In this document: positions 5,657-46,628 of the stretch, one piece after another | Layout: each line of letters opens with the position of its first letter | Numbering within the stretch: position 1 is the first letter of the stretch | Virus record (IMG/VR): IMGVR_UViG_3300006868_000028 | Span: 1 to 50,296 of that record | Length of the DNA stretch: 50,296 nt | Reading direction: 5' to 3' (one strand) | Source: a virus | Program-made: the position numbers and the translations under genes | The notes under the pieces: model-generated | The model's input: the letters and a program-made list of their open reading frames with translations, nothing else | Databases searched by the model: none | What the model was told of the DNA's origin: nothing

Positions 5657-5902
5657 CTATTCTACTTCTTCAGCAGCAGGTTCGTACTCCCCTGTGCTTA
5701 CATCTATATTAATAGAGCCGTACTTCTCTTCCAATGAGTTTTGAACTTTTCTAAATGCATCAGCAAGTTCTAAGACCTGCAACTGAACAGCATATGCCTG
5801 AGAAGTTACCTCTCCTAACAGCATTTTAGATTCGTTAAGTTTCGTGATTGACACCTGTAAAGAGTTCAACTCTTCCTCAGTAAGTTTCTTTTTATCTGAC
5901 AT
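5657..5902 (-). CDS. Small coiled-coil protein (81 aa)
   Basis: A short acidic coiled-coil protein starting MSDKKKLTEEELNSLQ and ending in KYGSINIDVSTGEY. Proteins with the LTEEEL start and a KYG...I...TGEY end are widespread in Bacteroidota phages, including crAss-like ones, and have no assigned function. It has its own upstream -7 box and a downstream terminator, so it looks like a separately expressed single gene, perhaps a minor virion or assembly factor. Confidence 0.65.
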   Translation of the reverse strand: MSDKKKLTEEELNSLQVSITKLNESKMLLGEVTSQAYAVQLQVLELADAFRKVQNSLEEKYGSINIDVSTGEYEPAAEEVE

Positions 5903-5919
5903 AATAAAGTTATTTATAA

Positions 5920-5927
5920 CAAATATA
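5920..5927 (-). promoter_or_regulatory. Bacteroidota-type -7 box (TATATTTG)
   Basis: A perfect TATATTTG on the minus strand 18 nt before the ATG of the 81-aa coiled-coil gene. No clear TTG at -33. Together with the downstream terminator it makes that gene an independent transcription unit. Confidence 0.45.
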
Positions 5928-5932
5928 AGTAA

Positions 5933-6313
5933 TTAAATAATATCTTCAGGTTCAGGTGGATTGCAGTAGAGACTATCAGGAAACAACTCGCAGTATGTTT
6001 GAGCGTATTCATCACGAGATGATGAACTACCGAAACTATGAACTCCCATAGGCGTAGGCCATACGATGTTAGCGTTCCACGATTCTAAAGGCTCTGCTTC
6101 CCAATACACATCAACAGCGAATTTATCGCTCAAGACGGCTGGAGTGATTTCATTACCTTCTTCATCGTAAGTACCTTGTGTTTTCACGATATATCCGAGT
6201 TTAGATATTGCGTGTTTGTAGGTAGGGTTACCTTCCTCATCGTGAGGGAGTGCTGCAATCAAGGCATCTACTGCTGCCTCGTTGTCAAATTCGTACTTTC
6301 TTGTTAGTCTCAT
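5933..6313 (-). CDS. Fibre-associated protein of unknown function (126 aa)
   Basis: The protein has two halves: an N-terminal part with ALPHDEEGNPTYKH and GTYDEEGNEITPAVL, and a C-terminal part ending in CELFPDSLYCNPPEPEDII. No known catalytic motif is visible. It lies two bases downstream of the large fibre gene at 6316-8082 and is the last gene of the fibre block, so it may be a fibre chaperone, a tip protein or a minor tail component. This role is inferred only from position. Confidence 0.45.
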   Translation of the reverse strand: MRLTRKYEFDNEAAVDALIAALPHDEEGNPTYKHAISKLGYIVKTQGTYDEEGNEITPAVLSDKFAVDVYWEAEPLESWNANIVWPTPMGVHSFGSSSSRDEYAQTYCELFPDSLYCNPPEPEDII

Positions 6314-6315
6314 AT

Positions 6316-8082: not shown

Positions 8083-8083
8083 A

Positions 8084-8293
8084 CTATTCTATTTCGGGGA
8101 ACCAATCCGCTCCCAATGTTTCTAATTCTGTTAACTCGGCTTCATATGCACCATTTTTAAGTATGGCAAAGTCTGTTCCGTTAGGGTGAGGAATAAGGTT
8201 AGCCCATCGGTTAGTTAGACCTGGATAGTTCTTCCCTTCTGTAACCATTTGGTTGTATGCCTCGCATTGCTCTTGTGTTCCTATATAGTACAT
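8084..8293 (-). CDS. Small fibre-block protein (69 aa)
   Basis: A 69-residue protein starting MYYIGTQEQCEAYNQMV with a tail ELETLGADWFPEIE. Short proteins of this kind follow fibre genes in many phages of aquatic Bacteroidota and may assist folding or attachment. The start overlaps the stop of the upstream arabinofuranosidase-like fibre by one base. There is no catalytic motif and the function is unknown. Confidence 0.5.
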   Translation of the reverse strand: MYYIGTQEQCEAYNQMVTEGKNYPGLTNRWANLIPHPNGTDFAILKNGAYEAELTELETLGADWFPEIE

Positions 8294-9519
8294 TAGTAGA
8301 TGTTGTAATGGGTATTAATGTTTTCTTGAATGGCTAAAGAATTATTTGTGTTATTTGTGTTCCAATAAACAAATTCTTGCATTGTGCCCCCTAAATAATT
8401 TATAGTAGTTGTTCTATGTCTACCTAAAGTCAATCCAGTGTGTGAAACACTATTAACTGTTTGTGTTGATGTGTTTGTTCCGTTAAAATAAGATTTTAAC
8501 TGTGTGCTATTAAAGTCAAGTGTTGCTAACACTCTTGATGAAATACCTGTTTGTGATAAATCATATTGAGTATCATTATCAAATCTATACCCGGCGGCGT
8601 CGTCGTATTGTAAAAAGAATTTATTATTTATTTGAGAGTCAAAAACATTTGCATTATTTAAATTGTCGTGTTTATACAATACAGATATTAAAGAATCCTC
8701 ACTACTTAAAGGTAATCCAGTAGCAGTCTGCATAAAAGTTGGGGTACCGAATAGCACAGCAGCCTTGCCGTCTTCCTCCACCAACGCACCCGCATCAATA
8801 ATCTTTGGCTGTGCTGTATCAGTACCTTGAACAGCGTGGTTAGCGTTTGCGCTTTGGTCGTACCAAGTGTGGACGTGACCATCTGCCGTGAGTTGTGTTA
8901 CTCTTATATTTTTTAAATATATAATGTTTCCTGCACCACTTCCTTGGTCTGGATAAATAACTAAATCATCACTAACACCATTAACAACAATAACTTCGTT
9001 AAATGTAGCCCATTGACCAGAGGTATAATATATTTCACCCCAGTTCCCGTTACCGCCTGCACGAAGTCTGTTAAAACCATCTAAATAAAAGTCAAATGAA
9101 AGATTATATGTGGTTCCAATTTCAGTAGGCAGAATATTAAAGTTGAATAACTGTGAAGGAGAGTTTCCGTCCCATACCGCCTTTAAAACTTCTTCTTTAC
9201 CATCGTGTGTTTCGCCAAGAGTGATAGTAAATTGAGAAGAACCTAAAGCAGACCCGTTAAGTGAAAAGTCTGATTCGTATCTAATATACTCCGCATTCAC
9301 CCAATCCAACAAAGCAACAGTATCCAACTCGTTGTCGTAGAAACCAATGTCCCTTTCAGTATCATCACTGCTCCTGCGTACTCTAATGGCATCACCCGTA
9401 TATCCATTGCGTAACTTCCGTAATGAATACGCTGCGGCTGCATCACCATATTGGTCTAACATACCATCAAACTCGTACAAGCGTAACTTATCGCTGATAT
9501 TAAAATAGGTCTTACTCAT
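8293..9519 (-). CDS. Tail fibre with arabinofuranosidase-like N-terminal motif and LamG-like C-terminus
   Basis: Residues about 28-75 (AYSLRKLRNGYTGDAIRVRR, then ERDIGFYDNELD) match the repeated N-terminal motif that phage tail proteins share with alpha-L-arabinofuranosidase B. Around residue 220 the family signature HTWYDQSANANHAVQ is present. The C-terminal part resembles a LamG/concanavalin domain (LGRHRTTTINYLGGTMQEFV). Such proteins bind or trim surface polysaccharides. It overlaps both neighbours by one base. Whether it is catalytic cannot be told; many relatives are only binders. Confidence 0.65.
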   Translation of the reverse strand: MSKTYFNISDKLRLYEFDGMLDQYGDAAAAYSLRKLRNGYTGDAIRVRRSSDDTERDIGFYDNELDTVALLDWVNAEYIRYESDFSLNGSALGSSQFTITLGETHDGKEEVLKAVWDGNSPSQLFNFNILPTEIGTTYNLSFDFYLDGFNRLRAGGNGNWGEIYYTSGQWATFNEVIVVNGVSDDLVIYPDQGSGAGNIIYLKNIRVTQLTADGHVHTWYDQSANANHAVQGTDTAQPKIIDAGALVEEDGKAAVLFGTPTFMQTATGLPLSSEDSLISVLYKHDNLNNANVFDSQINNKFFLQYDDAAGYRFDNDTQYDLSQTGISSRVLATLDFNSTQLKSYFNGTNTSTQTVNSVSHTGLTLGRHRTTTINYLGGTMQEFVYWNTNNTNNSLAIQENINTHYNIY

Positions 9520-11150
9520 TATGCTGTTAATTCATTTAGTTCCGTATCCGTCAAGAAACTGTCAAGCGTGAGGAACTGATTGATAGAATCTGTGGTCTGC
9601 TCAAAGTTATTGCGATGCCCTAATTGTATCTCCGTTAGTGATGAGGTGTCAAAGGCTCTCGCAATGTTTTGAACGATGCTTCCGTTATGGCTAATCTTCA
9701 ACGCTGTTGGTGAGTAGGCTAATGCAATCTTATTCACCCCTTGTGTTACGGATACATTCCCTCCGAGGAAGGTAAGTGTCTTTGCGCTGTCTGCGTTTAT
9801 GTTGATGAATATCGTTCCTGTTGCTGCTACGTTCTTGGTTAGGGTAGCAGTATCTTTTGCACGAGTGGCTGTAGTTCCGTAGGTCGGGATGTAGGATGAT
9901 GCTGAAGATTCATTTTTTTCTGCTTGAGCGTAACCACATAAAAATTCAGAGTTGTCATTATAGTAAGCGTCTACATATATGTTCACTCTATTTGTAGTCA
10001 CAGTTGATGTTTGTATGGAGATTATTTTATATACACCATCTGGATATGTTTCTACATGTATATTTGAAGGAAGCGGTGTTCCGTTAGGGTTCGCAAAAAA
10101 CCCTTCTGTTGAATAGTCATAAACAATAGAAGAACCCTGACCATAGAACTCCATAGATACTTTATTAAAACCATTTGAGCCAGATATAGGCTTGAAGAAG
10201 CAACTAAACGTCCATACATCGCCAACTGACACGTTGGCTCCATTTAATATATGCCCAGCATATTGAGCCAAGGAATTTTTAGTAAAGTGTTGGAGCGGCA
10301 TTCCCTCCCCAATTTTAGTTGTTGATACAGTATATGAGGCTCCGTTAAATGTGTTAAATAATAAAGACGGGACAAAATTTGTCCTGCTTGGTTCAATCAA
10401 CAAAGCACCATTGCCGCTTGTGTAGTCTATGCGAGGTTGGTCTTCAGATATCGTTGCAGCCTTTGCTGTTGTAGTTGTTGTTTCAATGTAAGGATAGGCT
10501 GACAATCCTTGATTAAGCATTGCATCTTGTATGTAAATTCCTTCGCCGAAGGTAGTATTCCCACTATAAGATGTTGTCTCACAAGCGTAAATCCCTGCAA
10601 TACCAGTGCTTGAAGAATTGTGAGTAATAGAAAACCTAAACCATCCGTTTCCTACGCTTTCACCATTAGTATAAACATCGGGATACGCTACGATAGGATT
10701 TTCTACACCTCCATCTATTAATGAAAAAATAACACCGACACCATCACCAGAAAAGTACAAGCCTACATAATCATATTCTCCTTTTTTTGCATAAACACTT
10801 AAAGTAATAACACCTGTTTGGCTTCTTGTTTGACGAATATTTGAAATGTTTGTCGTTGCATTTATTTTCCAAGCGTCATTAGTTCCATCGTATCCGCTTT
10901 GACCACCAATAGGTACATCTACTCCTATTGTAGTCCAAGGAGACAAGTCAAAACTATTACTCTGTAGCAATAGGTTCTCGTAGCCTTTCTCTATATACCC
11001 GTCTTCATTCACCCTCGTGGCTGACAAGTCGCTACCACGGCTAAAGGTAAAGTCACCACTTCCGTCATCGGGTTTTAAACTACCCAATACTCCGTCACTC
11101 CAACCGCTTGGAACTACTAATAGTGATGATGAGTCTGTTACATTTGCCAT
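9519..11150 (-). CDS. Tail fibre/adhesin-like protein, copy 2 (543 aa)
   Basis: This is a paralogue of the protein at 6316-8082. It shares DGSGDFTFSRGSDLSAT, DGYIEKGYENLLLQSN and IYIQDAMLNQGLSAYPYIET with small changes, while the C-terminal thirds differ. The beta-rich composition and SYIPTYGT segment point to carbohydrate-binding modules. Two diverged receptor-binding copies in one phage could broaden host range or bind two glycans. The start ATG lies two bases after the upstream stop. Confidence 0.62.
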   Translation of the reverse strand: MANVTDSSSLLVVPSGWSDGVLGSLKPDDGSGDFTFSRGSDLSATRVNEDGYIEKGYENLLLQSNSFDLSPWTTIGVDVPIGGQSGYDGTNDAWKINATTNISNIRQTRSQTGVITLSVYAKKGEYDYVGLYFSGDGVGVIFSLIDGGVENPIVAYPDVYTNGESVGNGWFRFSITHNSSSTGIAGIYACETTSYSGNTTFGEGIYIQDAMLNQGLSAYPYIETTTTTAKAATISEDQPRIDYTSGNGALLIEPSRTNFVPSLLFNTFNGASYTVSTTKIGEGMPLQHFTKNSLAQYAGHILNGANVSVGDVWTFSCFFKPISGSNGFNKVSMEFYGQGSSIVYDYSTEGFFANPNGTPLPSNIHVETYPDGVYKIISIQTSTVTTNRVNIYVDAYYNDNSEFLCGYAQAEKNESSASSYIPTYGTTATRAKDTATLTKNVAATGTIFININADSAKTLTFLGGNVSVTQGVNKIALAYSPTALKISHNGSIVQNIARAFDTSSLTEIQLGHRNNFEQTTDSINQFLTLDSFLTDTELNELTA

Positions 11151-23630: not shown

Positions 23631-23788
23631 TGGATTTAACAGACGTGAAAGTTTACGGATTTAATGCCGTGTCATTGATGATTACAATGACAGACGTAGA
23701 AGACACGTTAAAAATCATTTTGCTTATTGCCTCAATCGGATATACCGCACAGAGGTGGTACATAATGAATAAAAACCAAGAAGAATGA
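23630..23788 (+). CDS. Small single-pass membrane protein (52 aa)
   Basis: Starts at an ATG overlapping the preceding stop (TAATG) and ends at a TGA overlapping the next ATG. One hydrophobic helix (LKIILLIASIGYTAQRWY) follows a short polar N-terminus DLTDVKVYG; the tail is charged (MNKNQEE). Small proteins with this YG...S....T..E..LKI.LL..SIGYT..KWY pattern occur in several Bacteroidota phages near lysis or tail genes. A holin-like or membrane-anchor role is possible but not shown. Confidence 0.6.
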   Translation: MDLTDVKVYGFNAVSLMITMTDVEDTLKIILLIASIGYTAQRWYIMNKNQEE

Positions 23789-25020
23789 AACTCTCCTTAG
23801 CCTCAAAGATTTCACTTAGCATCGCTATATTTATTATGCTCGGGTTCTTTGCAATGCAAACTTCATTGGTCATAGGCTACGCAGAGGTTGATTATAACAA
23901 AATAGTTATAGGGTGGTTTTCAGTAGTACTGTTTATGCCCTTTTTCTTTTTTACGCTCATTGAGTTTGTACGCAGAATACGATACAAGTTTCAAACCATA
24001 AACGATACACTCGGGGCAATCAATGAGTCAAACATATTAGTAGAGTTTGATGTAGACGGAACTATTCTCTCCTGCAACGAAATATTCTGTAACGCCTTAG
24101 GGTACACTGAAGAGGAGATAGTAGGCAAGCACCACAAAACGTTGCTTCCAAAAGATATTGATGTTGACGGATACAAAGACTTTTGGTTTCAACTAAAGAA
24201 AGGCAAAACAAAAAGCGGTGAGTTTAGAAGGATAACAAAATCCGGGGAGACTATATGGATATACGGAAACTACAATCCAATCAGAAACCCATATGGAGAG
24301 ACCTACAGAGTTTTAAAGATTGCCTCAGACATCACCGATAAGAAAAACATTGAACTTGAGGTCGGCAAAAAGAACGCATACTTAGAGCACGCCGCCAAGA
24401 TACTACGCCACGATATGCACAGCGGTATTAACACATACATACCACGCGGGCTAAGTTCACTAAAGAGAAGGGTAAAAGCAGATAAGATAAAAGAATTAAA
24501 GATTGAGTCTCCATTAAAAATGATTGAAGAGGGACTCATACACACCCAACGAGTATACAAGGGTGTGAAGGAATTTACCAACTTGGTAAAAGCAGACAGT
24601 CAGTTAGAAAAGGTTTCTTGTGATTTAAAAGAAATACTAAAGACCTACCTATATTCAACGGCATACATAAGTCAGGTATCAATCGATGAGTTGGTTACCT
24701 GTGAGGTAAACGAATCGTTGTTTTGCACCGCCGTTGATAACCTGATACGGAACGGATTGAAGTATAATGATTCATCCACTAAAATGGTATCCGTATATAT
24801 GGAGTCAGAGACAACGCTTGTTATTGAAGACAACGGGCGTGGTATGTCTCAGGAAGACTTTGATTTATTATCGCAGCCATACACACGACGTGATGGTCAA
24901 AAAGAAAATGGCACCGGACTCGGACTCAACATCTGTGTCGCTATAATCAAAGAGCACGGCTTTAGTATAACATCTGAAAAATTAACGCAAGGAACTAAAA
25001 TAAGAATAGAACTAAAATGA
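23785..25020 (+). CDS. Phage-encoded PAS-domain sensor histidine kinase (411 aa)
   Basis: Two membrane helices (about 9-32 and 41-61) are followed by a PAS domain (about 70-187, with NEIFCNALGYTEEEIVGK and IASDITDKKN), a dimerisation/phosphotransfer helix with His209 in LRHDMHSGINTY, and a GHKL ATPase: N box with Asn319 and Asn323, G1 IEDNGRGMS (Asp349), G2 NGTGLGLNI (376-383). All key catalytic residues are present, so it should be an active kinase in the host membrane. It overlaps the stand-alone receiver gene by 4 nt. Sensor kinases are rare in phages; the signal it reads is unknown. It may sense host or cell-density cues, or feed into a host regulon. Confidence 0.9.
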   Translation: MKLSLASKISLSIAIFIMLGFFAMQTSLVIGYAEVDYNKIVIGWFSVVLFMPFFFFTLIEFVRRIRYKFQTINDTLGAINESNILVEFDVDGTILSCNEIFCNALGYTEEEIVGKHHKTLLPKDIDVDGYKDFWFQLKKGKTKSGEFRRITKSGETIWIYGNYNPIRNPYGETYRVLKIASDITDKKNIELEVGKKNAYLEHAAKILRHDMHSGINTYIPRGLSSLKRRVKADKIKELKIESPLKMIEEGLIHTQRVYKGVKEFTNLVKADSQLEKVSCDLKEILKTYLYSTAYISQVSIDELVTCEVNESLFCTAVDNLIRNGLKYNDSSTKMVSVYMESETTLVIEDNGRGMSQEDFDLLSQPYTRRDGQKENGTGLGLNICVAIIKEHGFSITSEKLTQGTKIRIELK

Positions 25021-25454
25021 TTAAATCAATATTACTTGTAGACGACGAAGACCTCTTCCACTTGGTATTTGAAGACGCTTGTAGCCTTTTAGATATGACG
25101 CTATCACTCGAGGCGCTAAACTCCTCTGACGAGGCTGACAGGATGTTTAAAAAGTGGTTTGAGGAAAGACCTTCAGACGACAAGCCTGAGTGTGTATTCG
25201 TCGACCTCAACATCATTGGCTCATCCTTTGATGGGATTGAACTTATTAGAAAGGTAAACTCAGACTACGGCAATGGTGTGGTCATCGGTATTATATCGTC
25301 ATCTGATGATAATAAAGAGATTGACAAGGCTAAAGCAGTAGGTGCGCAGTTTTGGATTATTAAAAGTGACGAGATTGAACCACGCTTGGAAGAGTTTGTA
25401 AAGGACTATCAAGGATACGTGGATAAGACCGCTCCATTTAAAGTATACAAATGA
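25017..25454 (+). CDS. Stand-alone response-regulator receiver domain (145 aa)
   Basis: A single receiver domain with all expected residues: acidic pair Asp9-Asp10 (LLVDDED), phosphoacceptor Asp63 (CVFVDLN), Ser94/95 (IGIISSS) and Lys116 (FWIIKSD). No DNA-binding or other output domain follows; the last about 25 residues are a short tail. It is translationally coupled to the kinase (ATGA overlap) and to the coiled-coil membrane protein downstream, its most likely partner. It could also relay phosphate to a host protein. Confidence 0.9.
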   Translation: MIKSILLVDDEDLFHLVFEDACSLLDMTLSLEALNSSDEADRMFKKWFEERPSDDKPECVFVDLNIIGSSFDGIELIRKVNSDYGNGVVIGIISSSDDNKEIDKAKAVGAQFWIIKSDEIEPRLEEFVKDYQGYVDKTAPFKVYK

Positions 25455-33191: not shown

Positions 33192-33805
33192 TCTTCTTGG
33201 ATTACGGCGAATAGGTCTTTCTGTCTCATCGTATACATAACCTCACCCTCAATCTCATTGGCAAAGTCTGCATTTTTTGCATACACCACATAATCCCCCT
33301 CACTAACCTGAAGGGCTGGCTCATTACGCTGCGGTGTTCCGATATGGCGCAAGCGGCCAATCTTATAGTTCTTTTTCTTTCTATATGCCTGCGGGATGAT
33401 AATGGAGGAGTTCCCATAATGGGAACTTACCTCCTCCTCTAACGGCTCGACGAATACCCACGAGTTGGTCATATGCATCTTGCCGTCACGGATATAACAG
33501 AAAATATTAAAGTATTCCACCTGATAATACTCCTTGTCCTCGTGCCATACAAGGTTGTCAGGGTGGATGGTTAGATAATTGAAATACACCTTGTCGCCCA
33601 CCTGCAAGTCCATCGTGGAGTTGCCGTGTGCATAGTGTGATGGCGATAACAATCCGGGGACCGCCTCAACAATGCCGCTGATGGACACGTGGTGAAGGGG
33701 CTTAAAGGACGTATCTAACCATAGAACGGTGCCACCTGAAATCTCAATCTGATTGTTGTACTTCTGTGGCGTGCTGATTAACACAATGTCTTTAGTAGTT
33801 TTCAT
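33170..33805 (-). CDS. GroES-like co-chaperonin candidate (211 aa)
   Basis: I start at the ATG at 33805 (MKTTKDIVLISTPQK); earlier starts would overlap the promoter. The middle GDKVYFNYLTIHPDNLVW and the end VSEGDYVVYAKNADFANEIE with YTMRQKDLFAVI match the beta-barrel pattern (GD.V.Y.... and ...KDL.AVI) of phage GroES/gp31-like proteins, including WVFVEPL near the mobile-loop/roof boundary. It would help the host GroEL fold the capsid protein. A second reading, a plain beta-barrel virion protein, remains possible. Confidence 0.55.
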   Translation of the reverse strand: MKTTKDIVLISTPQKYNNQIEISGGTVLWLDTSFKPLHHVSISGIVEAVPGLLSPSHYAHGNSTMDLQVGDKVYFNYLTIHPDNLVWHEDKEYYQVEYFNIFCYIRDGKMHMTNSWVFVEPLEEEVSSHYGNSSIIIPQAYRKKKNYKIGRLRHIGTPQRNEPALQVSEGDYVVYAKNADFANEIEGEVMYTMRQKDLFAVIQEECLKNFA

Positions 33806-33812
33806 AGTGAGA

Positions 33813-33844
33813 TAAATATACTGAAAATATTTTGAACCTTTCAA
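33813..33844 (-). promoter_or_regulatory. Predicted promoter (TTG-N21-TATATTTA)
   Basis: On the minus strand TTG at 33842-33844, 21 nt spacing, and TATATTTA at 33813-33820, one mismatch from the consensus, 8 nt before the ATG of the GroES-like gene. It is the leftward promoter of the divergent region. Confidence 0.6.
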
Positions 33845-33870
33845 GAGGTAAAATAAAATTTGTTCAGGGC

Positions 33871-33901
33871 TTGACTATTCCAAAAATATCTTGTAACTTC
33901 G
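33871..33901 (+). promoter_or_regulatory. Predicted promoter (TTG-N20-TAACTTCG)
   Basis: TTG at 33871-33873 and TAACTTCG at 33894-33901 with 20 nt between, one mismatch from the Bacteroidota consensus. It is nearly identical to the perfect promoter at 39260-39290 (both GTAACTT-Y-GC). It would start a transcript at about 33907 with no gene near, supporting a non-coding RNA. Confidence 0.6.
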
Positions 33902-33906
33902 CTTTG

Positions 33907-34060
33907 TAGCAACGCTACCGGTAATGCTGAGATATCCCGAGTAACCCGTAATGCTTCCGTAGCCTCAGAGGCGGAAGCCTAAAAAAACATTAAGGGCTAC
34001 GAAATAGCAACACTACCGAACAAACCTCGTAATTATGAGGCGCTCTATATACCTACTCCA
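33907..34060 (+). ncRNA. Candidate small structured RNA
   Basis: Downstream of the predicted promoter there is no gene on the plus strand but several hairpins: GTAGC-AAC-GCTAC at the 5' end, GCTTCCG...CGGAAGC with an inner GCCTC-A-GAGGC followed by AAAAAAA, and CCTCGTAATTATGAGG, almost a perfect palindrome. TAGCAACGCTACCG and TAGCAACACTACCG form direct repeats about 100 nt apart. It could be a small RNA or part of an origin. Expression is unproven. Confidence 0.42.
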
Positions 34061-34560
34061 AGGTACCGGTTAAACACCTCGTGGCATAATAAAAATTATA
34101 CCCCCTCTTTTTTTTAACCTCTCCATCCCTCTAAAATCCCATAACACACTTTCCACAACCGGGTACCCCCATTCCCCGTTTGAAAAAAAATTGTGTAGTC
34201 GTATGACGTGGGGATAATGCATATGTATGGTGGGCTGCTCTGCCAATGGGAAACGCAGAACCAAAACCGGGTACCCCACACCTGCTCAGGACCACTTCCA
34301 CTGCCCTGAAAACCCACCCCCTCATATCCTTACTTTTGGGCGATGAAAAAGGAAACCTTAAGGGTCTATCTCTCTCTCGAAGTGATAAGCCCTCTGACCT
34401 CTTCCCTACCACCTCTACACCCGTGTTTGGGGAACCCTTTGACCCTGCCCTGTTGTATTTCTGTTATATATATATAAGACCTGCGTGTGTGGGGATTTGC
34501 TCTGAAAAAACTTTCGCTCTGTATCCCCCGTAAACACTGAGGTTCTAAAAAAAGATTGGT
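34061..34560. other. Gene-free divergent region, possible replication origin
   Basis: About 500 nt between leftward and rightward gene blocks without convincing coding sequence. It has a pyrimidine-rich tract (34103-34139), an alternating TA run (34468-34480) and repeats of AACCGGGTACCCC. The transcription divergence, repeats and the DnaA-like gene in the adjacent module fit an origin, but no classic DnaA boxes were seen. Confidence 0.38.
34157..34277. repeat. Direct repeats AACCGGGTACCCC
   Basis: Two identical 13-nt copies at 34157-34169 and 34265-34277, each containing the palindrome GGGTACCC. A shorter related copy, AACCGGTACC in inverted orientation, is at 34062-34071. These could be iterons or protein-binding sites. 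Confidence 0.6.
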
Positions 34561-34563
34561 ACA

Positions 34564-34599
34564 TTGTTAGGAATTACCAACAATTTATGTTTACCTTTG
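34564..34599 (+). promoter_or_regulatory. Predicted promoter of the structured RNA (TACCTTTG)
   Basis: A perfect TAnnTTTG box (TACCTTTG, 34592-34599). The best upstream element is TTG at 34564-34566 (25 nt spacing) or TTA three bases on (22 nt). Transcription would start at about 34604, exactly at the first hairpin of the structured RNA. Confidence 0.55.
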
Positions 34600-34603
34600 T
34601 AAT

Positions 34604-35161
34604 GTCCAACGGGACGAACGCTTTTTGACTTAATGGAAATTGAATGCGAGAGTAGCGGCGTGAGCCGTACCGCACAATGGATAGCCGCGCTGAAAGTCAG
34701 ACGGGCTTGTGGGAGCACTGAGGGCCAAGGACCTCACCCACTCGTAAGCCACCTGACAGGTCCAAGGGAGTAGTAAGCACCGCGATGTCATTGTGTAGGA
34801 CGGGGTAGCGCACCGAGGTTGGTTGACTAACTGACGGAGGGTGAGGGTAACATTCGACAACACTTGAGGCGGTGCTTCGTTTGTTGGTTTGCTGAGGGAG
34901 GGTCGCGAGACTGCTCCTCGCACTTGTTTCAGGATGTAGCCTTGGCTGCGTGATGGTGACGGGTGAGTACGAGGTTCAGGCCGGACGGATGGACTTCAGC
35001 AACTGCGAAAGCAGAATGGATGCAACCCCGTACTACATTGGCCGTGTCGGGGGTCGTTAGGTTGCATCAGGTCTACCGGTTTGACACGCCATTGCTTTCC
35101 AATAACATATCAACGCTGCTCAGGTTCTTGCCTGAGGCCTGAGGTCGTGCTCGGGGCGTTG
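34604..35161 (+). ncRNA. Large structured non-coding RNA (about 560 nt)
   Basis: No plausible protein is encoded here on either strand, and the sequence is rich in paired segments. It opens with GTCC-AACG-GGAC. Then come CGGC-GTGA-GCCG, a nested stem GCTT/AAGC + GTGGG/CCCAC + GAGG/CCTC (34705-34749), a perfect 9-bp long-range helix AAGCACCGC/GCGGTGCTT (34775-34783 with 34869-34877), GTACGAGGTT/AACCCCGTAC (34967-34976 with 35024-35033), hairpin CTGC-GAAA-GCAG (35003-35014), GATGCAACC/GGTTGCATC (35019-35027 with 35060-35068) crossed by CGTGTC/GACACG (35043-35048 with 35083-35088), and a closing three-way junction (35111-35161). Size, phage location and style recall the large RNA classes GOLLD and ROOL, but I cannot assign it to either. 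Confidence 0.68.
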
Positions 35162-35164
35162 TCT

Positions 35165-35206
35165 ACGGCTATGCTGCGAGGCCGTTCTATCGCAGTCTAC
35201 CAAAAC
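35165..35206 (+). promoter_or_regulatory. H-type pseudoknot leader, copy 1
   Basis: Stem 1 ACGGC (35165-35169) pairs with GCCGT (35181-35185); stem 2 CTGCGA (35174-35179) pairs with TCGCAG (35190-35195). The stems interleave, giving an H-type pseudoknot with loops TATG and TCTA, followed by TCTACCAAAAC. It lies 9 nt before the ATG of the 97-aa gene. Confidence 0.68.
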
Positions 35207-35214
35207 TACGTTCT

Positions 35215-35508
35215 ATGTTATCAATCATTGATGTGCACTTGGTCACCACATCCGGTGACAATGACTACCACGTCAGTCCGTACTATGTGACGGCTATCAA
35301 AAATGCTTCCAAGGTCAGCCTCAATCGGCTGCCTCATATCATCTACCACGCGGTCAAGTTTTGGCCTGTTGGTGAGTTCGATATCATCTTCAAGTTGCCT
35401 GAGGCAACGGACACTATTTCCTTGGCTATTGAGACCACGGGTGAGCCGCTGACGTCACCTGAGGATGCCAAGGCAAAGTTGCTTACACTCTTCAGCAGTT
35501 TGGTGTGA
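35215..35508 (+). CDS. Unknown protein in the RNA island (97 aa)
   Basis: Encodes MLSIIDVHLVTTSGDNDYHV and SPYYVTAIKNASKVSLNRLP, then FWPVGEFDIIFKLPEATDTI, ending KAKLLTLFSSLV. The first two thirds look like a small alpha/beta domain. It is preceded by pseudoknot copy 1 and its stop codon TGA lies within the 5' strand of tRNA-like minihelix A. No family recognised; the neighbouring amidoligase suggests that it belongs to the same pathway. Confidence 0.62.
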   Translation: MLSIIDVHLVTTSGDNDYHVSPYYVTAIKNASKVSLNRLPHIIYHAVKFWPVGEFDIIFKLPEATDTISLAIETTGEPLTSPEDAKAKLLTLFSSLV

Positions 35509-35542
35509 TGGTCCACGGGGAGGTTCGAGTCCTCCCACATCA
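35501..35542 (+). ncRNA. tRNA-like minihelix A (acceptor-like stem plus T-arm)
   Basis: A 7-bp acceptor-like stem TGGTGTG (35501-35507) with CACATCA (35536-35542, one G-U) stacks directly on a 5-bp T-stem GGAGG/CCTCC with loop TTCGAGT (35524-35530), exactly tRNA dimensions. The D and anticodon arms are replaced by an 11-nt linker starting ATGGT. The 3' flank TCTA is close to NCCA. The stop of the 97-aa gene lies in the 5' strand. Confidence 0.68.
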
Positions 35543-35547
35543 TCTAC

Positions 35548-35588
35548 GAGCGATGCGTTCACGCTCTTCTATGGACGTCTACCAAAAC
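35548..35588 (+). promoter_or_regulatory. H-type pseudoknot leader, copy 2 (amidoligase)
   Basis: Stem 1 GAGCG (35548-35552) with CGCTC (35562-35566); stem 2 CGTTCA (35556-35561) with TGGACG (35572-35577, one G-U). Loops ATG and TTCTA, followed by TCTACCAAAAC as in copy 1. The stem sequences differ completely from copy 1 while pairing is kept. It ends 11 nt before the amidoligase ATG. Confidence 0.68.
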
Positions 35589-35598
35589 TTTATGTGTT

Positions 35599-37281
35599 AT
35601 GCCTACTAATGTCATCACAGGTCGCAGTATCAGCGACAACAATGCAACTTTCAGCGAGTACCACAACGGATACATTCGCTCTGACCAAGCGCGTTACTTG
35701 CGCTACACCAATGCCGATGGTGAGAGCACTACCGGCTACGTTCACGAATCCGCCGTTGCTGCCTCTGAGCAGTTCATCGTTGGCGGCACTACTTGCCTTG
35801 CATCTGAGGCTGTAGGAATCCCAAATTTGCCGCTCGGCCTGCGGTTGTTCTACAAGGCTGACACCACCCGTGACCACGACCTGATGGAGTGTACTTCCGA
35901 TGCTGATGTTCCGGTGTTGCGCTTGGATGAGGAGTTACTCAACCTTGGCTTTACGTTCCGTACTGAGGGTGCGTTCCGCAATGACGGCGGAGTCATCCGT
36001 GCTACGGAGGGTGAGAATCGTGGCCGTGAGTACTCTTTCGTACACATCCCGATGATTGTTGGTGATGAGTTGAAAATTGTTAAGACGCCATTCTTGGCTA
36101 CCACTATTTTCCGCTCTCGTTTCATCAAGTTCGGGGGTCAGTCTTACTTCACTTCCAAGGCTGTGTTTGAGCAGTTGATTGCCAATCAGCAGTGTGTTCA
36201 GTCAGACCGCGAGGTTTACCTGAGCATTGACGATGCTATCGCTGATGGCAACGTGCCAACGTGCTACGCTTGTGACTACCACGCCTCACACTACGACGAG
36301 GCTTTCAACGACCGCAATAGAGAGCAATTGAACAACGAGAACATCAAGTTCCGTGTAGGCTTTGAGATTGAAAAAGTCGACAAGGTTGCTAAGTTCAAGT
36401 TGGGCAATATGAACTACAAGAAGACGCTGCCAAGTGGTACGCGCATCATCGTTGAGCAGGACTCATCCTTGAGCGGCGTTGGCGCCAATCGCGGCGGAGG
36501 CTTCGAGGCGGTGACTACCATCTTCGATTTGTTTGGTGACGATATCATCAACGACTGCGACCACCCGTACTTCAACCTGTTGCTCGACGCCAAGGCTACG
36601 AGCGTCAACCCGAGCGGTACGAATGGTGAGTACAACTTCGAGGCCGGAGGCCACGTGAACCTCTCGGTTAGTGGTATGACTACTGACGAATTGAACAAGG
36701 CCCTTGAGCCGTTCTCAGGACTGCTCTACGCTTGTCACGCTCGCAACTTGCGTCGCTACGCCAACTTCCAAGACAAGTCACGCTTCAACCGCGGCTCAGT
36801 CTACGACGGAACACCGGCGTTCGAGAACAAGTACAACGGCCTGATGGAGATTCGCCTGTTCGGACCTGTCCGCAGCGTTGAGGGCTTCAAGGCACGTGTT
36901 GAGTTGCTTCGTGCTATCTGCACGTTGATTGAGGCAGGTAACGTCAAGAACTACCTCGACGTGAACCGCATCTTGCGTGACCGGAACACGCCATTGGCCA
37001 AGGCTGCTGCTGCTGAGTTGGCTCACGTGGAGCAGATGTTCAATGAGGCCCTCGGTGAGGACCTGACTCCTGAGGCTGATTTGGTTGATACCATCCGCAA
37101 GCGTGCGATGCTTTTCTCTGCTGCGATGGATGCTCAGAACTTCGGACTCAGCAAGGCTAAGTTCGGTGTGTTTGCTGACCGCGCTCAGAAGCAGTTGGCT
37201 GACGTGTACGATTCGCTACACGAAACTACCAAGCGTCGTATGAGAGACAACTTGGTGAGCCGCGAGACTCTCTTCTCGTAG
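35599..37281 (+). CDS. Amidoligase (glutamine-synthetase-like COOH-NH2 ligase; 560 aa)
   Basis: The core matches the amidoligase family, an ATP-dependent COOH-NH2 ligase with a glutamine-synthetase-like fold: FRVGFEIEKVDK (about 248-259) with metal-binding Glu, IIVEQDSSLSGVG, GGGFEAVTTIFDL, the GGHVNLSVSG block (about 350) and KYNGLMEIRLFGPVRSVEGF (about 412-431). The first about 240 residues, with paired cysteines (CYACDYHASHYD), may be a separate zinc or substrate domain. Families of this type work with class II amidotransferases and cyclotransferases in phage and bacterial operons to add or trim amide-linked amino acids. The start ATG follows pseudoknot copy 2. Confidence 0.76.
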   Translation: MPTNVITGRSISDNNATFSEYHNGYIRSDQARYLRYTNADGESTTGYVHESAVAASEQFIVGGTTCLASEAVGIPNLPLGLRLFYKADTTRDHDLMECTSDADVPVLRLDEELLNLGFTFRTEGAFRNDGGVIRATEGENRGREYSFVHIPMIVGDELKIVKTPFLATTIFRSRFIKFGGQSYFTSKAVFEQLIANQQCVQSDREVYLSIDDAIADGNVPTCYACDYHASHYDEAFNDRNREQLNNENIKFRVGFEIEKVDKVAKFKLGNMNYKKTLPSGTRIIVEQDSSLSGVGANRGGGFEAVTTIFDLFGDDIINDCDHPYFNLLLDAKATSVNPSGTNGEYNFEAGGHVNLSVSGMTTDELNKALEPFSGLLYACHARNLRRYANFQDKSRFNRGSVYDGTPAFENKYNGLMEIRLFGPVRSVEGFKARVELLRAICTLIEAGNVKNYLDVNRILRDRNTPLAKAAAAELAHVEQMFNEALGEDLTPEADLVDTIRKRAMLFSAAMDAQNFGLSKAKFGVFADRAQKQLADVYDSLHETTKRRMRDNLVSRETLFS

Positions 37282-37321
37282 GGTGTATGGTGCACGGAGG
37301 GGTTCGATTCCCCTCCCATCC
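37281..37321 (+). ncRNA. tRNA-like minihelix B
   Basis: An acceptor-like stem GGGTG (37281-37285) with CATCC (37317-37321, one G-U) plus a 7-bp T-stem GGAGGGG/CCCCTCC with loop TTCGATT (37303-37309): 12 bp in total, as in a tRNA acceptor/T arm. The linker TATGGTGCAC replaces the D and anticodon arms and shares ATGGT with minihelices A and C. It directly follows the amidoligase stop. Confidence 0.68.
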
Positions 37322-37326
37322 ACAAT

Positions 37327-37366
37327 GCCGATGTCCTGACGGCTTTCTCTCAGGACCTATCAAAAG
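37327..37366 (+). promoter_or_regulatory. H-type pseudoknot leader, copy 3
   Basis: Stem 1 GCCG (37327-37330) with CGGC (37340-37343); stem 2 GTCCTGA (37333-37339) with TCAGGAC (37350-37356). Loops AT and TTTCTC, followed by CTATCAAAAG, a variant of the CTACCAAAAC tail of copies 1 and 2. It is followed by a conserved hairpin leader and then the 273-aa gene. Confidence 0.68.
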
Positions 37367-37394
37367 TGAGTCACCTTAGTCGGTGCATAATGCC
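37363..37394 (+). promoter_or_regulatory. Repeated hairpin leader, copy 1
   Basis: AAAGTGAGTCACC, a short variable loop, GGTGCATAATGCC, then two bases and the ATG. CACC and GGTG form a small hairpin. The same leader with a different loop precedes the gene starting at 38307, which shows that it is a regulatory or translation element. Confidence 0.65.
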
Positions 37395-37396
37395 TT

Positions 37397-38218
37397 ATGA
37401 AAACTTCAGTTGTTTTCACTTACAACAATCAGGTGGGTGTAGCCAAAAACACGCTACATCCACAGGCCAATGTAAACGCTAACCTCATCATCAAAGCGAT
37501 TGAGAAAGCCAACGAGAAATTCATTGATGAGGTCAAGACCATTCTCATCAACGTGCGTCAATCCGGCGTTGCCCCGGATGGGTTTTCACACTACGCCGAT
37601 ATCAAGGTTTCGTTCCTGTTCAAGTCTGAGTTCACCGATAAGTTGGAGGGCATCAGAATGTATGACGCGAGGTTGGATAGTGATACGGGAGTTGTCTTCC
37701 CGAAATTCTACCACCCCAACACGCACATCACCAAGCGTGGCGTGTACATCAACGAGGTGTCGGGTCGTAAACTTGTGAGTGAAGAAGCCATCTTCAAGAA
37801 TGTTGTCAAGTCTTGGGCCGGTTACATTGTGACGTCATTGCTCTACAAGGTTCAGCAAGACGCCGCGCGATTGGAGCGTGAGCAGCAAAGAGCAGAGGCC
37901 AAACAAAAATGGGCTGACAAAGTTGGCTCATTGGTCGACCTGTCTTTGGCTCAGATGAAAGCCGAGATTGCTGCTTCTCTTGATGTCAATGAGATACTCA
38001 TTGAGACTGCCTTAGCAAGTGTGGACAAGGTCCGTATGGAGGCTGAGGTTTTGGTTGAGCACACCAAGAACAACGTCAAGGTTAGGCTGTACAAATCAAT
38101 CAGAGGTAATTGGGAAACCGGTGCTGTGATTGCCGACGAGGCTAAGTTAGAGTTGACTGCCTCACAGGCGGTGACCAAGAATGCCTTGGCTAAGTTCGCG
38201 GGATTGAGCATCCTATAA
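37397..38218 (+). CDS. Unknown protein in the RNA island (273 aa)
   Basis: An alpha/beta N-terminal half (MKTSVVFTYNNQVGVAKNTL, KTILINVRQSGVAPDGF, YADIKVSFLFKSEF, IRMYDARLDSDTGVVFPKFY) followed by a coiled coil (AARLEREQQRAEAKQKWADK) and a helical C-terminus. No family recognised. It sits between the amidoligase and small genes with shared leader elements, so a role in the same pathway is likely. The ATG at 37397 is fixed by the leader; an upstream ATG (37390) is out of frame. Confidence 0.62.
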   Translation: MKTSVVFTYNNQVGVAKNTLHPQANVNANLIIKAIEKANEKFIDEVKTILINVRQSGVAPDGFSHYADIKVSFLFKSEFTDKLEGIRMYDARLDSDTGVVFPKFYHPNTHITKRGVYINEVSGRKLVSEEAIFKNVVKSWAGYIVTSLLYKVQQDAARLEREQQRAEAKQKWADKVGSLVDLSLAQMKAEIAASLDVNEILIETALASVDKVRMEAEVLVEHTKNNVKVRLYKSIRGNWETGAVIADEAKLELTASQAVTKNALAKFAGLSIL

Positions 38219-38228
38219 TTGTTCGGAC

Positions 38229-38267
38229 AGGGCGAATGGTTTCTGCGGGTTCGATTCCCGCCGCTCT
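38229..38267 (+). ncRNA. tRNA-like minihelix C
   Basis: AGGGCG (38229-38234) pairs with CGCTCT (38262-38267, one G-U) and stacks on a 5-bp T-stem GCGGG/CCCGC with loop TTCGATT (38250-38256). The 10-nt linker AATGGTTTCT again holds ATGGT. The 3' flank TCTAA follows. The T-arm CGGGTTCGATTCCCG with nearby GGAC recalls the 3' end of tmRNA. No pseudoknot follows this copy; a repeated hairpin leader does. Confidence 0.66.
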
Positions 38268-38275
38268 TCTAATTT

Positions 38276-38305
38276 AAAGTGAGTCACCTGAGGGTGCATA
38301 ATGCC
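38276..38305 (+). promoter_or_regulatory. Repeated hairpin leader, copy 2
   Basis: AAAGTGAGTCACC, a 4-nt loop, GGTGCATAATGCC, then one base and the ATG at 38307. Flanks match copy 1 (37363-37394) while the loop differs, which supports a conserved small hairpin in the 5' leader. Confidence 0.65.
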
Positions 38306-38306
38306 A

Positions 38307-38561
38307 ATGAAAGAGTACGTAATGGAAAGGGTCGAGGCATACCTATTGACCAACGCTAAGGAGCAGTTCCTGAGCGATAAGTTTACTTGGACCGAGTTCA
38401 ATCGCCGGACCAAGCAGTTCGATACGCTCGAGGAGTGTATAGAAATCAAGTCTCAGCGACCGAGCGCAAAGGTCGTGGAAATTGTGCATCGCTACACTTC
38501 GACCATCAACTATGGTCTGACGAAGATGGAGCGCATTGAACGTTTAATTGAAATTGAATAG
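38307..38561 (+). CDS. Small protein (84 aa)
   Basis: Encodes MKEYVMERVEAYLLTNAKEQ and FLSDKFTWTEFNRRTKQFDT, ending ERIERLIEIE. The leader comparison with the 273-aa gene supports the ATG at 38307 over the one two codons earlier. The middle (TWTEFNRRTKQFDTLEEC) suggests a small alpha/beta domain. Function unknown. Confidence 0.55.
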   Translation: MKEYVMERVEAYLLTNAKEQFLSDKFTWTEFNRRTKQFDTLEECIEIKSQRPSAKVVEIVHRYTSTINYGLTKMERIERLIEIE

Positions 38562-38565
38562 ACCT

Positions 38566-38973
38566 ATGAGAAAAACACCTTACGAGGTACGTGTGCAGAT
38601 TGCTGATGCGGACGTGCCAACCCTGTTTAGGGATTGCCTGTGCTCAGGCTCAATCGGGTTCGGTGCACTGCGCATCGAGTTCGCTGATGACGATTACCAA
38701 GAAGCCAAGGATTCATTGCGTCAAGCAAGACCTGAGGAGACCTTGTGTTGGGAGGATGTCATCACTGAGATATTGAAAATTGGGAGAGCGCTCACTTTTG
38801 TGGACGTAGAAGATTGCGATAGCACCTACAAAGTGAACCTCGATACGATACGCAAGAACGCTGCGATGATTCAGTTCAGAGATTTGAACGCGATGATGAA
38901 TGAACAAGACGATGCCATCACTCACGACAGCATCCTGCAAACACTAATCTTAGGAGATATAATTTATGGATAA
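38566..38973 (+). CDS. Unknown acidic protein (135 aa)
   Basis: From the ATG at 38566 (MRKTPYEVRVQIADADVPTL), with two cysteines in FRDCLCSGSIGFGALRIEFA, then SLRQARPEETLCWEDVITEI and a helical end. The central CSGSIGFGAL loop is unusual. It starts 5 nt after the preceding stop and overlaps the next gene by 8 nt. It may be an early or accessory protein of the amidoligase set. Confidence 0.55.
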   Translation: MRKTPYEVRVQIADADVPTLFRDCLCSGSIGFGALRIEFADDDYQEAKDSLRQARPEETLCWEDVITEILKIGRALTFVDVEDCDSTYKVNLDTIRKNAAMIQFRDLNAMMNEQDDAITHDSILQTLILGDIIYG

Positions 38974-39265
38974 TCTTAGAATGAACCCACGGATAAAGTC
39001 CCTTTGGGAGATACTCAATGCGATTGGGTGTGACCTTGAGGGCAGCGTTGGTCCTGTTCCACGCGCTTCGTTTTGGTCCAATGACCAAGGCGAGAAAGCC
39101 TCAGGGTTTTACCTGTACCGCAACACCAAGGACAACTTCAGTGATGAGGAAGTCGACACCATCCGAAAGGTGGCTGACTCAGTTGGATTTAAACTGCGTT
39201 CAGTCAGTGAGTACGAGGATGTCGATGACCGCGAATACAAACCATCACTAACCTTTGACTTGTAA
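38966..39265 (+). CDS. Unknown protein (99 aa)
   Basis: Encodes MDNLRMNPRIKSLWEILNAI and GCDLEGSVGPVPRASFWSND, then FSDEEVDTIRKVADSVGFKL. A small alpha/beta domain. Ends just before the promoter of the glutamine-amidotransferase unit, so it closes the first half of the island. No family recognised. Confidence 0.55.
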   Translation: MDNLRMNPRIKSLWEILNAIGCDLEGSVGPVPRASFWSNDQGEKASGFYLYRNTKDNFSDEEVDTIRKVADSVGFKLRSVSEYEDVDDREYKPSLTFDL

Positions 39266-39290
39266 TGTTTCGTAATAATGCGTAACTTTG
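39260..39290 (+). promoter_or_regulatory. Strong Bacteroidota-type promoter (TTG-N20-TAACTTTG)
   Basis: TTG at 39260-39262 and a perfect TAACTTTG at 39283-39290 with 20 nt between. Transcription from about 39297 would start just before a short palindrome (ATTGTAACAAT) and pseudoknot copy 4, and then read the glutamine-amidotransferase gene. The promoter overlaps the end of the 99-aa gene. Confidence 0.72.
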
Positions 39291-39310
39291 CATATCGTTA
39301 TTGTAACAAT

Positions 39311-39338
39311 GCCCAAGCCGACAGGGCTTTGATGTCGG
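39311..39338 (+). promoter_or_regulatory. H-type pseudoknot leader, copy 4 (glutamine amidotransferase)
   Basis: Stem 1 GCCC (39311-39314) with GGGC (39324-39327); stem 2 CCGACA (39318-39323) with TGTCGG (39333-39338). Loops AAG and TTTGA. Both stems are perfect and differ from copies 1-3. The tail is TCAGAAC, and the sequence CACCAAATAC just before the ATG may be the counterpart of the CTAYCAAAA tail of the other copies. It lies 45 nt before the gene. Confidence 0.6.
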
Positions 39339-39383
39339 TCAGAACTCACGAGCGCAAGAGTCTAACACTGCGCACCAAATACT

Positions 39384-40463
39384 ATGTGTGTTATCATCGT
39401 AAACAAAGACGGCAAGAAACTCCCCAACGGAGTTGTCGCAAAAGCAATGGCCATCAATCCGGATGGCTTTGGTATCGCCTACCTTGATGGCGATAAAGAA
39501 GTAATCAAAACCATGGACTACACTGAGGCCTTCGAGCACATTCAGTCACAACGTCCATACGTCGCGCACTTCCGCTACACCACGCGAGGTGCAACCAACA
39601 TCGACAACTGCCACCCTTTCCCATCAGGTGAGGGTGTGCTCTTCCACAACGGAACTATCCGCATCGAGACTGCTGAGAATCAAGTTGACTCTGAAGTTGT
39701 CGCGGACCTTGTTGGCGATATGGACCCTGTCAAACGTCGCAAGGTTTTGGAACTCACCGACTCGCGCTTCGTGCGTGTGGCCAATGGTGAGGTCGAGATA
39801 TTCAACGAGGATTTATTTGTCAATCACCACGGCGTATTGTACTCTAAAAACAATGTGCTCACGGGAAACTTAATCGCAGTGTACGGAACACTGCGCAAGG
39901 GCTTTGGCAACAATCACTACCTTGGTAACTCAAAGTTCATCGCATCAGGTGAAACCTTTGACCGCTATCGTATGACCGGCAGCGGCATTCCGTACTTGCT
40001 TCAGGGCAAGAATGCCAAGGGTGCTAACCACGTACGCGTTGAGGTGTACTCCGTTGATGAATACCAACTCAAAAACATTGACCGCCTCGAGGGACACCCG
40101 ACGTGGTACAAGCGTGAGAAGATTGGTATCCGCCTTGACAACGGCATCGTCATCGGTGCTGAGGCGTACATCATCAACGACACTGCGCCATACGATGACG
40201 GCAAGTACTACGCTGACTTCGCTGAGATTCGCAAGCCCGTCAAGTACGGCTACTCCACATACCAATACGGAGGTTCTAACGTCACCATCTTCGACTCAGT
40301 TCAGGAGACCATTGACGATTCTATTGAGAATGTGATGAGCATCGAGGAAACCATCGATTGTCCAACGTGTGATTCCATTGCGAACTACGATGACTTCGAG
40401 GATGCATATTGGTGCTACTCTTGCGGATGTTACAAGCAACCTAAAGCCAAGGTGATATGCTAA
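39384..40463 (+). CDS. Class II glutamine amidotransferase fused to gamma-glutamylcyclotransferase-like domain and zinc ribbon (359 aa)
   Basis: The Cys2 nucleophile of an N-terminal nucleophile hydrolase is exposed once Met1 is removed (MCVIIVNKDG). AINPDGFGIAYL, the HFRYTTRGATNIDNCHPF block and VLFHNGTI complete the amidotransferase (about 2-130). From about residue 165, LIAVYGTLRKGFGNNHYL and DRYRMTGSGIPYLLQGK match GGCT/AIG2-like gamma-glutamylcyclotransferases, with Glu-containing LEGHPTWYKREKI. The C-terminal CPTCDS...CYSCGC is a zinc ribbon. Such fusions work with amidoligases. Pseudoknot copy 4 precedes it. Confidence 0.8.
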   Translation: MCVIIVNKDGKKLPNGVVAKAMAINPDGFGIAYLDGDKEVIKTMDYTEAFEHIQSQRPYVAHFRYTTRGATNIDNCHPFPSGEGVLFHNGTIRIETAENQVDSEVVADLVGDMDPVKRRKVLELTDSRFVRVANGEVEIFNEDLFVNHHGVLYSKNNVLTGNLIAVYGTLRKGFGNNHYLGNSKFIASGETFDRYRMTGSGIPYLLQGKNAKGANHVRVEVYSVDEYQLKNIDRLEGHPTWYKREKIGIRLDNGIVIGAEAYIINDTAPYDDGKYYADFAEIRKPVKYGYSTYQYGGSNVTIFDSVQETIDDSIENVMSIEETIDCPTCDSIANYDDFEDAYWCYSCGCYKQPKAKVIC

Positions 40464-46268: not shown

Positions 46269-46628
46269 ATGAGCGAACAACTATCCGTAACAGGAACCGT
46301 GAAGAGTATCGGTCAGTTACAATCAATTCAAACTCGTGATGGAAAGACCATCACCAAACAAGAAGTTTTACTATCAGTTGGAGACAAGTATCCTCAGGAT
46401 ATTCCATTCGAGTTCTTCAATGACAAGACTGAGTTAGTAAGTAAGATTTCTCAGGGCAAGCAAGCACAATTCTACTTCAACCTGAAGTCATTTGTGTACA
46501 ACGACAAAGTACGAATGGGTTCACCACAAGTATGGCGTGTTGATGCATCAGATTCCCAACCTACCACGAACCAAGCAGCCACTCCGCAGTTCCAAAATGT
46601 GGATGGCTCTAACGACCTGCCATTCTAA
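46269..46628 (+). CDS. Single-stranded DNA-binding-like OB-fold protein, DUF3127 type (119 aa)
   Basis: The pattern SVTGTVKSIGQLQSIQTRDG, then QEVLLSVGDKYPQDIPFEFF and a C-terminal DGSNDLPF matches the DUF3127 SSB-like family of Bacteroidota and their phages: an OB fold with YPQ...FEF.NDK, a disordered Gln/Thr linker, and an acidic DLPF end like the SSB protein-binding tail. It coats ssDNA during replication. One-base overlap with the next gene. Confidence 0.8.
   Translation: MSEQLSVTGTVKSIGQLQSIQTRDGKTITKQEVLLSVGDKYPQDIPFEFFNDKTELVSKISQGKQAQFYFNLKSFVYNDKVRMGSPQVWRVDASDSQPTTNQAATPQFQNVDGSNDLPF

Follow-up and report, generated by a model that had tools for sequence, protein, structure and literature searches.

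The intergenic gaps of this phage very likely carry a recurring composite RNA element, in which a tRNA-like fold is followed after 3-4 nt by an H-type pseudoknot, the whole lying between a stop codon and the start of the next gene. The window analyzed is the complete 50,296-nt stretch of IMG/VR record IMGVR_UViG_3300006868_000028, a podophage-like genome with relatives among Flavobacteriia phages (portal phrog_6547, terminase phrog_6681). Three of the four pseudoknots of the window form the second half of a composite. The distance between the two parts is 3 nt in window composites 1-3 and in the related contig L132, and 3-4 nt in the related contig L134. The starts of tRNA-like elements 2-4 range from 4 nt upstream to 11 nt downstream of the last base of a stop codon, and the pseudoknots end 18-44 nt upstream of a start codon. 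The parts are separable: pseudoknot 4 has no tRNA-like partner, and tRNA-like element 4 has no pseudoknot. An earlier note on this DNA described a recurring small structured RNA before start codons, and such an element is indeed present and is conserved in the related phages L132/L133 and L134. The tRNA-like elements upstream of the pseudoknots were absent from that note.

All four interleaved helix pairs that had been reported are present, on the + strand, and they share a layout. Pseudoknot 1 (35165-35196) is ACGGC(T)-AT-GCTGCGA-(G)GCCGT-TCTA-TCGCAGT, and pseudoknot 2 (35548-35578) is GAGCG-AT-GCGTTCA-CGCTC-TTCTA-TGGACGT. Pseudoknot 3 (37327-37356) is GCCG-AT-GTCCTGA-CGGC-TTTCTC-TCAGGAC, and pseudoknot 4 (39311-39339) is GCCC-AA-GCCGACA-GGGC-TTTGA-TGTCGGT. 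In each, stem 1 has 4-6 bp, L1 2 nt, stem 2 7 bp, L2 is zero and L3 has 4-6 nt. L1 is AT in the first three copies and AA in the fourth, and every copy has G as the first and A as the last base of stem 2. The crossing stems and short loops described before stand, with two corrections: L1 is 2 nt, and stem 2 extends to 7 bp. The copies differ in stem sequence while pairing is kept, as was claimed: when strands are exchanged between copies, 20 swaps per stem, pairing survives in 0 for stem 2 and in 2 for stem 1. Calling this covariation within one genome was mistaken, as it is similarity of unrelated sequences and not covariation among homologues. Six copies in all have two crossing helices, short loops and differing sequences and are H-type pseudoknots.

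A tail of the form CTAYCAAAA follows copies 1-3, in agreement with the earlier description. Read from the sequence on the + strand, CTACCAAAA (35197-35205) abuts stem 2 of pseudoknot 1, CTACCAAAA (35579-35587) abuts the last stem base of pseudoknot 2, and CTATCAAAA (37357-37365) abuts that of pseudoknot 3. The tail of pseudoknot 4, CAGAACTC, is looser. Another leader repeat, AAAGTGAGTCACC-N4..6-GGTGCATAATGCC, is found at 37363-37394 and 38276-38305, immediately 5' of two start codons, and ATGCCGTATG occurs at gene starts in L132 also.

The shared layout, and not the mere existence of crossing helices, carries the weight. The loose description given originally (loops of 0-4 nt, optional gap) finds seven matches on the + strand and five on the - strand of the window versus 1.75 expected per shuffled strand, so that it barely exceeds chance and is weak by itself. 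Both strands were re-scored without preset positions for the tight layout (S1 4-6 bp, L1 2 nt, S2 6-8 bp, no gap, L3 4-6 nt). The four pseudoknots are the top + strand matches of the 50 kb, and at a score of at least 28 there are four matches on + and one on - versus 0.15 expected per shuffled strand. This layout was derived from the four window copies themselves, and the independent evidence is thus its return in relatives. It selected the conserved element as the best + strand match in both L132 and L134, loci that lie outside its definition.

The upstream partners of pseudoknots 2 and 3 resemble tRNAs reduced to an acceptor stem and a T-arm, GGTTCGANTCC, with the anticodon arm absent. Element 2 (35505-35544) has the acceptor GATG../CATC.. 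and a T-arm at 35519-35535, and it overlaps the preceding stop codon. Element 3 (37283-37323) begins 1 nt past a stop codon and has the acceptor GTGTATGG/CCATCCAC and a T-arm at 37298-37314. Element 4 (38230-38266), the one that lacks a pseudoknot downstream, has the acceptor GGGCG/CGCTC and a T-arm at 38245-38261. All three are on the + strand, and in all three the acceptor and T-arm are joined by ATGGT, a linker similar to the GG of the tRNA D-loop. The partner of pseudoknot 1 is a tRNA-sized three-way junction, module 1 (35111-35161, + strand), composed of the stem CAACGC/GCGTTG and two hairpins, with a non-canonical T-loop and a fold z of -3.24. Elements 2 and 3 each end 3 nt before their pseudoknots. 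A T-arm with a TTCRANY loop on an acceptor stem is found in elements 2-4, at L132:6441 and at L134:749, while module 1 is without this T-loop.

Perfect T-arms, with a TTCRANY loop and five Watson-Crick pairs, are concentrated in these gaps. The window contains three (at 35519, 37298 and 38245) versus a chance expectation of 0.145 on both strands of the shuffled window, and all three are on the + coding strand inside the gene gaps of this operon. Folded as single sequences, the mini elements exceed shuffles in stability by a modest margin only (z -1.05 to -1.69), and for element 3 folded alone the MFE structure sometimes leaves the acceptor unclosed. With cmscan, element 4 matches the tRNA domain of tmRNA (E 7.6e-05) and element 2 gives a tRNA-Sec-like match (E 0.67), both under the Rfam gathering score. 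Identity as a tmRNA was rejected, since the match is to the tRNA-like domain only, covering 0 of 328 inner positions, and is under the gathering score. ARAGORN calls no functional tRNA, with full cloverleaf and anticodon, in the window, L132 or L134. No 3' CCA is encoded beside any of the acceptors, the spacers of the five composites being TCT, TAC, AAT, CAA and CAA, and this weakens RNase P recognition.

The composite is conserved in two independent relatives. Searches with the primase led to the IMG/VR contigs L132 and L133, a near-identical pair counted as one kind, and L134; the primases are 69-71% identical. In the corresponding gene block of these contigs, a tRNA-like element of about 92 nt is followed by the pseudoknot GCCC-AC/AA-ACCGGA-GGGC-ATGT-TCCGGT, approximately 15-20 nt upstream of the start of a 130-aa protein for which no family was found. 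The T-arm in L132 and L134 has four pairs. One acceptor pair is altered on both sides among the relatives, GGGTGGG/CCCACCC becoming GGGTGAG/CTCACCC, a change from G-C to A-T. A further tRNA-like element in L132 (3289-3346; acceptor GCCACAC/GTGTGGC, loop TTCGCGA) precedes the first small gene and has no pseudoknot.

Pattern searches extended the survey to other genomes. Among viral contigs, a DNA pattern for the L132-type composite matches only the known three, and a single Planctomycetota contig that matches it reads as chance. The pattern of T-arm plus CTAYCAAAA found 110 stretches in IMG/VR, with no composite among the top-ranked ones, which are ordinary tRNA genes or chance. The relative with an 87% portal (L014/G001) has no match to 34.5-40.5 kb of the window, and a GTDB search with the RusA-like protein gave no matches. 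A pseudoknot-like match in L168 is antisense to a long ORF, and scattered pseudoknot matches in more remote loci lack a tRNA-like element nearby; all were taken as chance. tRNA-like sequences that ARAGORN does not call were seen at two places elsewhere. One lies between two genes of a remote relative (L144, 4986-5063), and the other is a tandem array on the minus strand of L006 (about 960-600), in which the separating hairpins have loops with CAGTATAAATA.

The element is tied to gene boundaries, not to one gene. Pseudoknots 1-4 precede, all on the + strand, a 97-aa ORF (35215-35508), a 560-aa ORF (35599-37281), a 273-aa ORF (37397-38218) and a 359-aa fusion of glutamine amidotransferase-like and gamma-glutamyl cyclotransferase domains, GATase-GGACT (39384-40463). 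Only the last has a confirmed enzyme family (PF06094, 1.2e-20), and no family was found for the 97-aa and 273-aa ORFs. The earlier note placed two copies before functionally matching enzymes, which holds for this fusion; the other gene, the 560-aa ORF read as an amidoligase, is unconfirmed. It has no match in Pfam, PHROG or PDB, a profile comparison with the true Amidoligase_2 of phage C75C1 was negative, and it is only weakly related to an unannotated protein of MW202828 (24%, pairwise E 3e-06). Searches with this ORF gave no relatives in IMG/VR or phages. The composite copies in L132 and L134 precede a different gene from the four in the window, and the L132 gene block shows no recognisable amidoligase.

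These observations make it extremely unlikely that the element is a riboswitch or metabolite-controlled leader coordinating a glutamine/amidoligase pathway, as was first proposed. The proposal could point to one copy before the GATase-GGACT gene and one before a possible amidoligase. However, different genes stand behind the copies, in the window and again in the relatives, and C75C1 and MW202828 have amidoligase and GATase-GGACT genes that lack the element; together these argue against a pathway riboswitch. The stems have no conserved ligand-pocket sequence. Rfam gives no riboswitch match, with nothing at the gathering score in the window and nothing at E 5 in 33800-40000. In MW202828 (MW202828.1, L016) a 16-bp palindrome, GTGTCGTTAACGACAC, recurs at about 5700-9700 in many leaders of successive early genes and looks, from its sequence, like an operator or hairpin series.

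The operon has promoter-like sites at its head and before pseudoknot 4. A putative -7 element, TACCTTTG (34592-34599, + strand), lies at the operon head and has no clear -33 element. A second, TAACTTTG (39283-39290, + strand), has TTG 20 nt upstream (39260-39262), giving TTG-N20-TAACTTTG, and pseudoknot 4 is about 20 nt downstream of it. Both sites were found by regular expression and named for TAnnTTTG, the Bacteroidota -7 promoter consensus. The 1.3 kb preceding the operon (33845-35164) has no clear gene, and the 560 nt immediately upstream of pseudoknot 1 fold with no unusual stability (z -0.81). Elsewhere in this phage genome, at 23785-25454, there is a two-component pair. A PAS-domain histidine kinase (23785-25020; HATPase_c 2.1e-16, PAS_3 2.7e-14) is directly followed by a response-regulator receiver protein (25017-25454; PF00072 7.9e-07, slightly under the cut-off).

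The relatives also have hammerhead ribozymes in their gene gaps. With a descriptor (CUGANGA / GAAA core with three stems), L132 has three with intact cores, at 3708-3763, 4005-4062 and 4216-4273, between successive small ORFs near the start of the gene block, and the near-identical L133 shares them. The remote relative L147 has one with a complete core at 5477-5536, immediately after a stop codon. These assignments rest on the descriptor, as Rfam reports none at its gathering score and lists L132:3708 at E 0.084. The same descriptor finds no hammerhead in the window. In L132 the hammerheads and the composite lie in different gaps of one gene block. That related viruses carry a hammerhead in one gap and a tRNA-like fold in another suggests that both serve to separate neighbouring cistrons.

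The composite may well punctuate a polycistronic phage transcript, with the tRNA-like part cut by host enzymes and the pseudoknot capping the new 5' end. Host RNase P, and possibly RNase Z, would cut at the tRNA-like part, the cut positions being guesses from the tRNA analogy. RNase P can act on a substrate reduced to the acceptor stem and T-arm, and it is known to cut model hairpins of acceptor and T-stem-loop, pre-tmRNA, phage RNAs and some mRNAs (PMC11143913). The downstream mRNA would then start a few nucleotides before the pseudoknot and have no free 5' single strand. The spacing of 3-4 nt would place the pseudoknot at the very 5' end of this mRNA. An end sealed in this way should resist 5'-end-dependent decay, and the pseudoknot may keep the A/C-rich leader accessible to the ribosome. 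Pseudoknot 4 is near a predicted transcription start, which fits a role at the 5' end, and it would act in the same way on a primary transcript begun at the putative promoter (39283). In L132, the hammerheads in the other gaps of the block would do the cutting themselves, as proposed for hammerheads that flank single genes in prophages (PMC3088659).

The strongest rival is translational control without cutting, which is possible although rather doubtful. Here the pseudoknot, with or without the tRNA-like part, would govern ribosome access, as a protein operator or as a tRNA mimic that recruits ribosomes. The pseudoknots end 18-44 nt before starts, with unpaired A/C-rich leaders behind them, and pseudoknot 4 stands without a tRNA-like element. 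A precedent among phages is the pseudoknot of T4 gene 32 (PMC3014915). On the other hand, the genes behind the copies are unrelated, none of them is the ssDNA-binding protein gene (46269-46625), and the hammerheads in other gaps of the L132 block point to cutting. A counterpart in bacterial viruses of intergenic tRNA-mimicking entry sites is highly unlikely. Such a site would capture a free 30S subunit, or the ribosome as it completes the upstream gene, and bring it to the next start codon in hosts that make little use of Shine-Dalgarno sequences.

Two other explanations treat the tRNA-like element and the pseudoknot as separate. The element might protect or define the 3' end of the upstream mRNA, the pseudoknot being an independent leader structure. 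Elements 2-4 start within a few nucleotides of stop codons, and element 4 and L132:3289 are without a pseudoknot. However, the constant 3-4 nt spacing in five composites suggests one unit, and this explanation appears unlikely. It is very improbable that the elements are captured remnants of tRNA genes or attachment sites beside coincidental pseudoknots. Integrases that target tRNA genes do leave a T-arm and the 3' strand of the acceptor, and element 3 has distant blastn matches, short ones that fall at least in part within tRNA genes. Yet every element includes a matching 5' strand for its acceptor, the elements are unlike one another in sequence, and no integrase is present among the ORFs scanned. 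Three copies plus those of the relatives are at the same kind of site, the spacing to the pseudoknot is constant, and one paired sequence change with pairing kept is already seen in the relatives.

Transcript cutting at tRNA-like folds has a close parallel in concept. In mitochondrial transcripts, tRNA folds between genes are cut sites, an arrangement known as tRNA punctuation. The window elements differ in that they are degenerate, phage-borne and tRNA-like, not functional tRNAs, and no report of tRNA punctuation in phages was found in open-access full texts. The prophage hammerheads (Perreault et al. 2011, PMC3088659) are likewise small RNA elements between phage genes that are proposed to cut transcripts into gene-length mRNAs. 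Hammerheads are present in L132 and L147, while the gaps of the window instead contain tRNA-like folds and pseudoknots, and these would depend on host enzymes. Minimal RNase P substrates (model hairpins, pre-tmRNA, and the phage C4 and M3 RNAs; PMC11143913) similarly stack an acceptor on a T-arm without an anticodon arm, and the ATGGT linker of the mini elements, resembling a D-loop, adds to the likeness. In contrast to these substrates, the window elements have no encoded CCA, lie in mRNA gaps at a fixed spacing to a pseudoknot, and are only putatively cleaved. The T4/T2 gene 32 mRNA also has an H-type pseudoknot in a phage leader upstream of the start codon (PMC3014915), whereas the window pseudoknot recurs before unrelated genes and is paired with a tRNA-like element. 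The layout scan found no pseudoknot of the gene 32 operator type before the SSB gene of the window.

Open-access full texts on tRNA-like elements, pseudoknots, RNase P and phage mRNA describe the separate parts, and no tRNA-like fold joined to a pseudoknot between phage genes was found in them. If the proposed cutting is correct, related phages would divide neighbouring genes by different RNA devices, either self-cleaving ribozymes or tRNA mimics with a protective knot. The phage would use the tRNA-processing enzymes of its host as a tool for cutting mRNA. Transcript cutting would then be a selected trait, and it would explain how the dose of each gene could be set from one long message.
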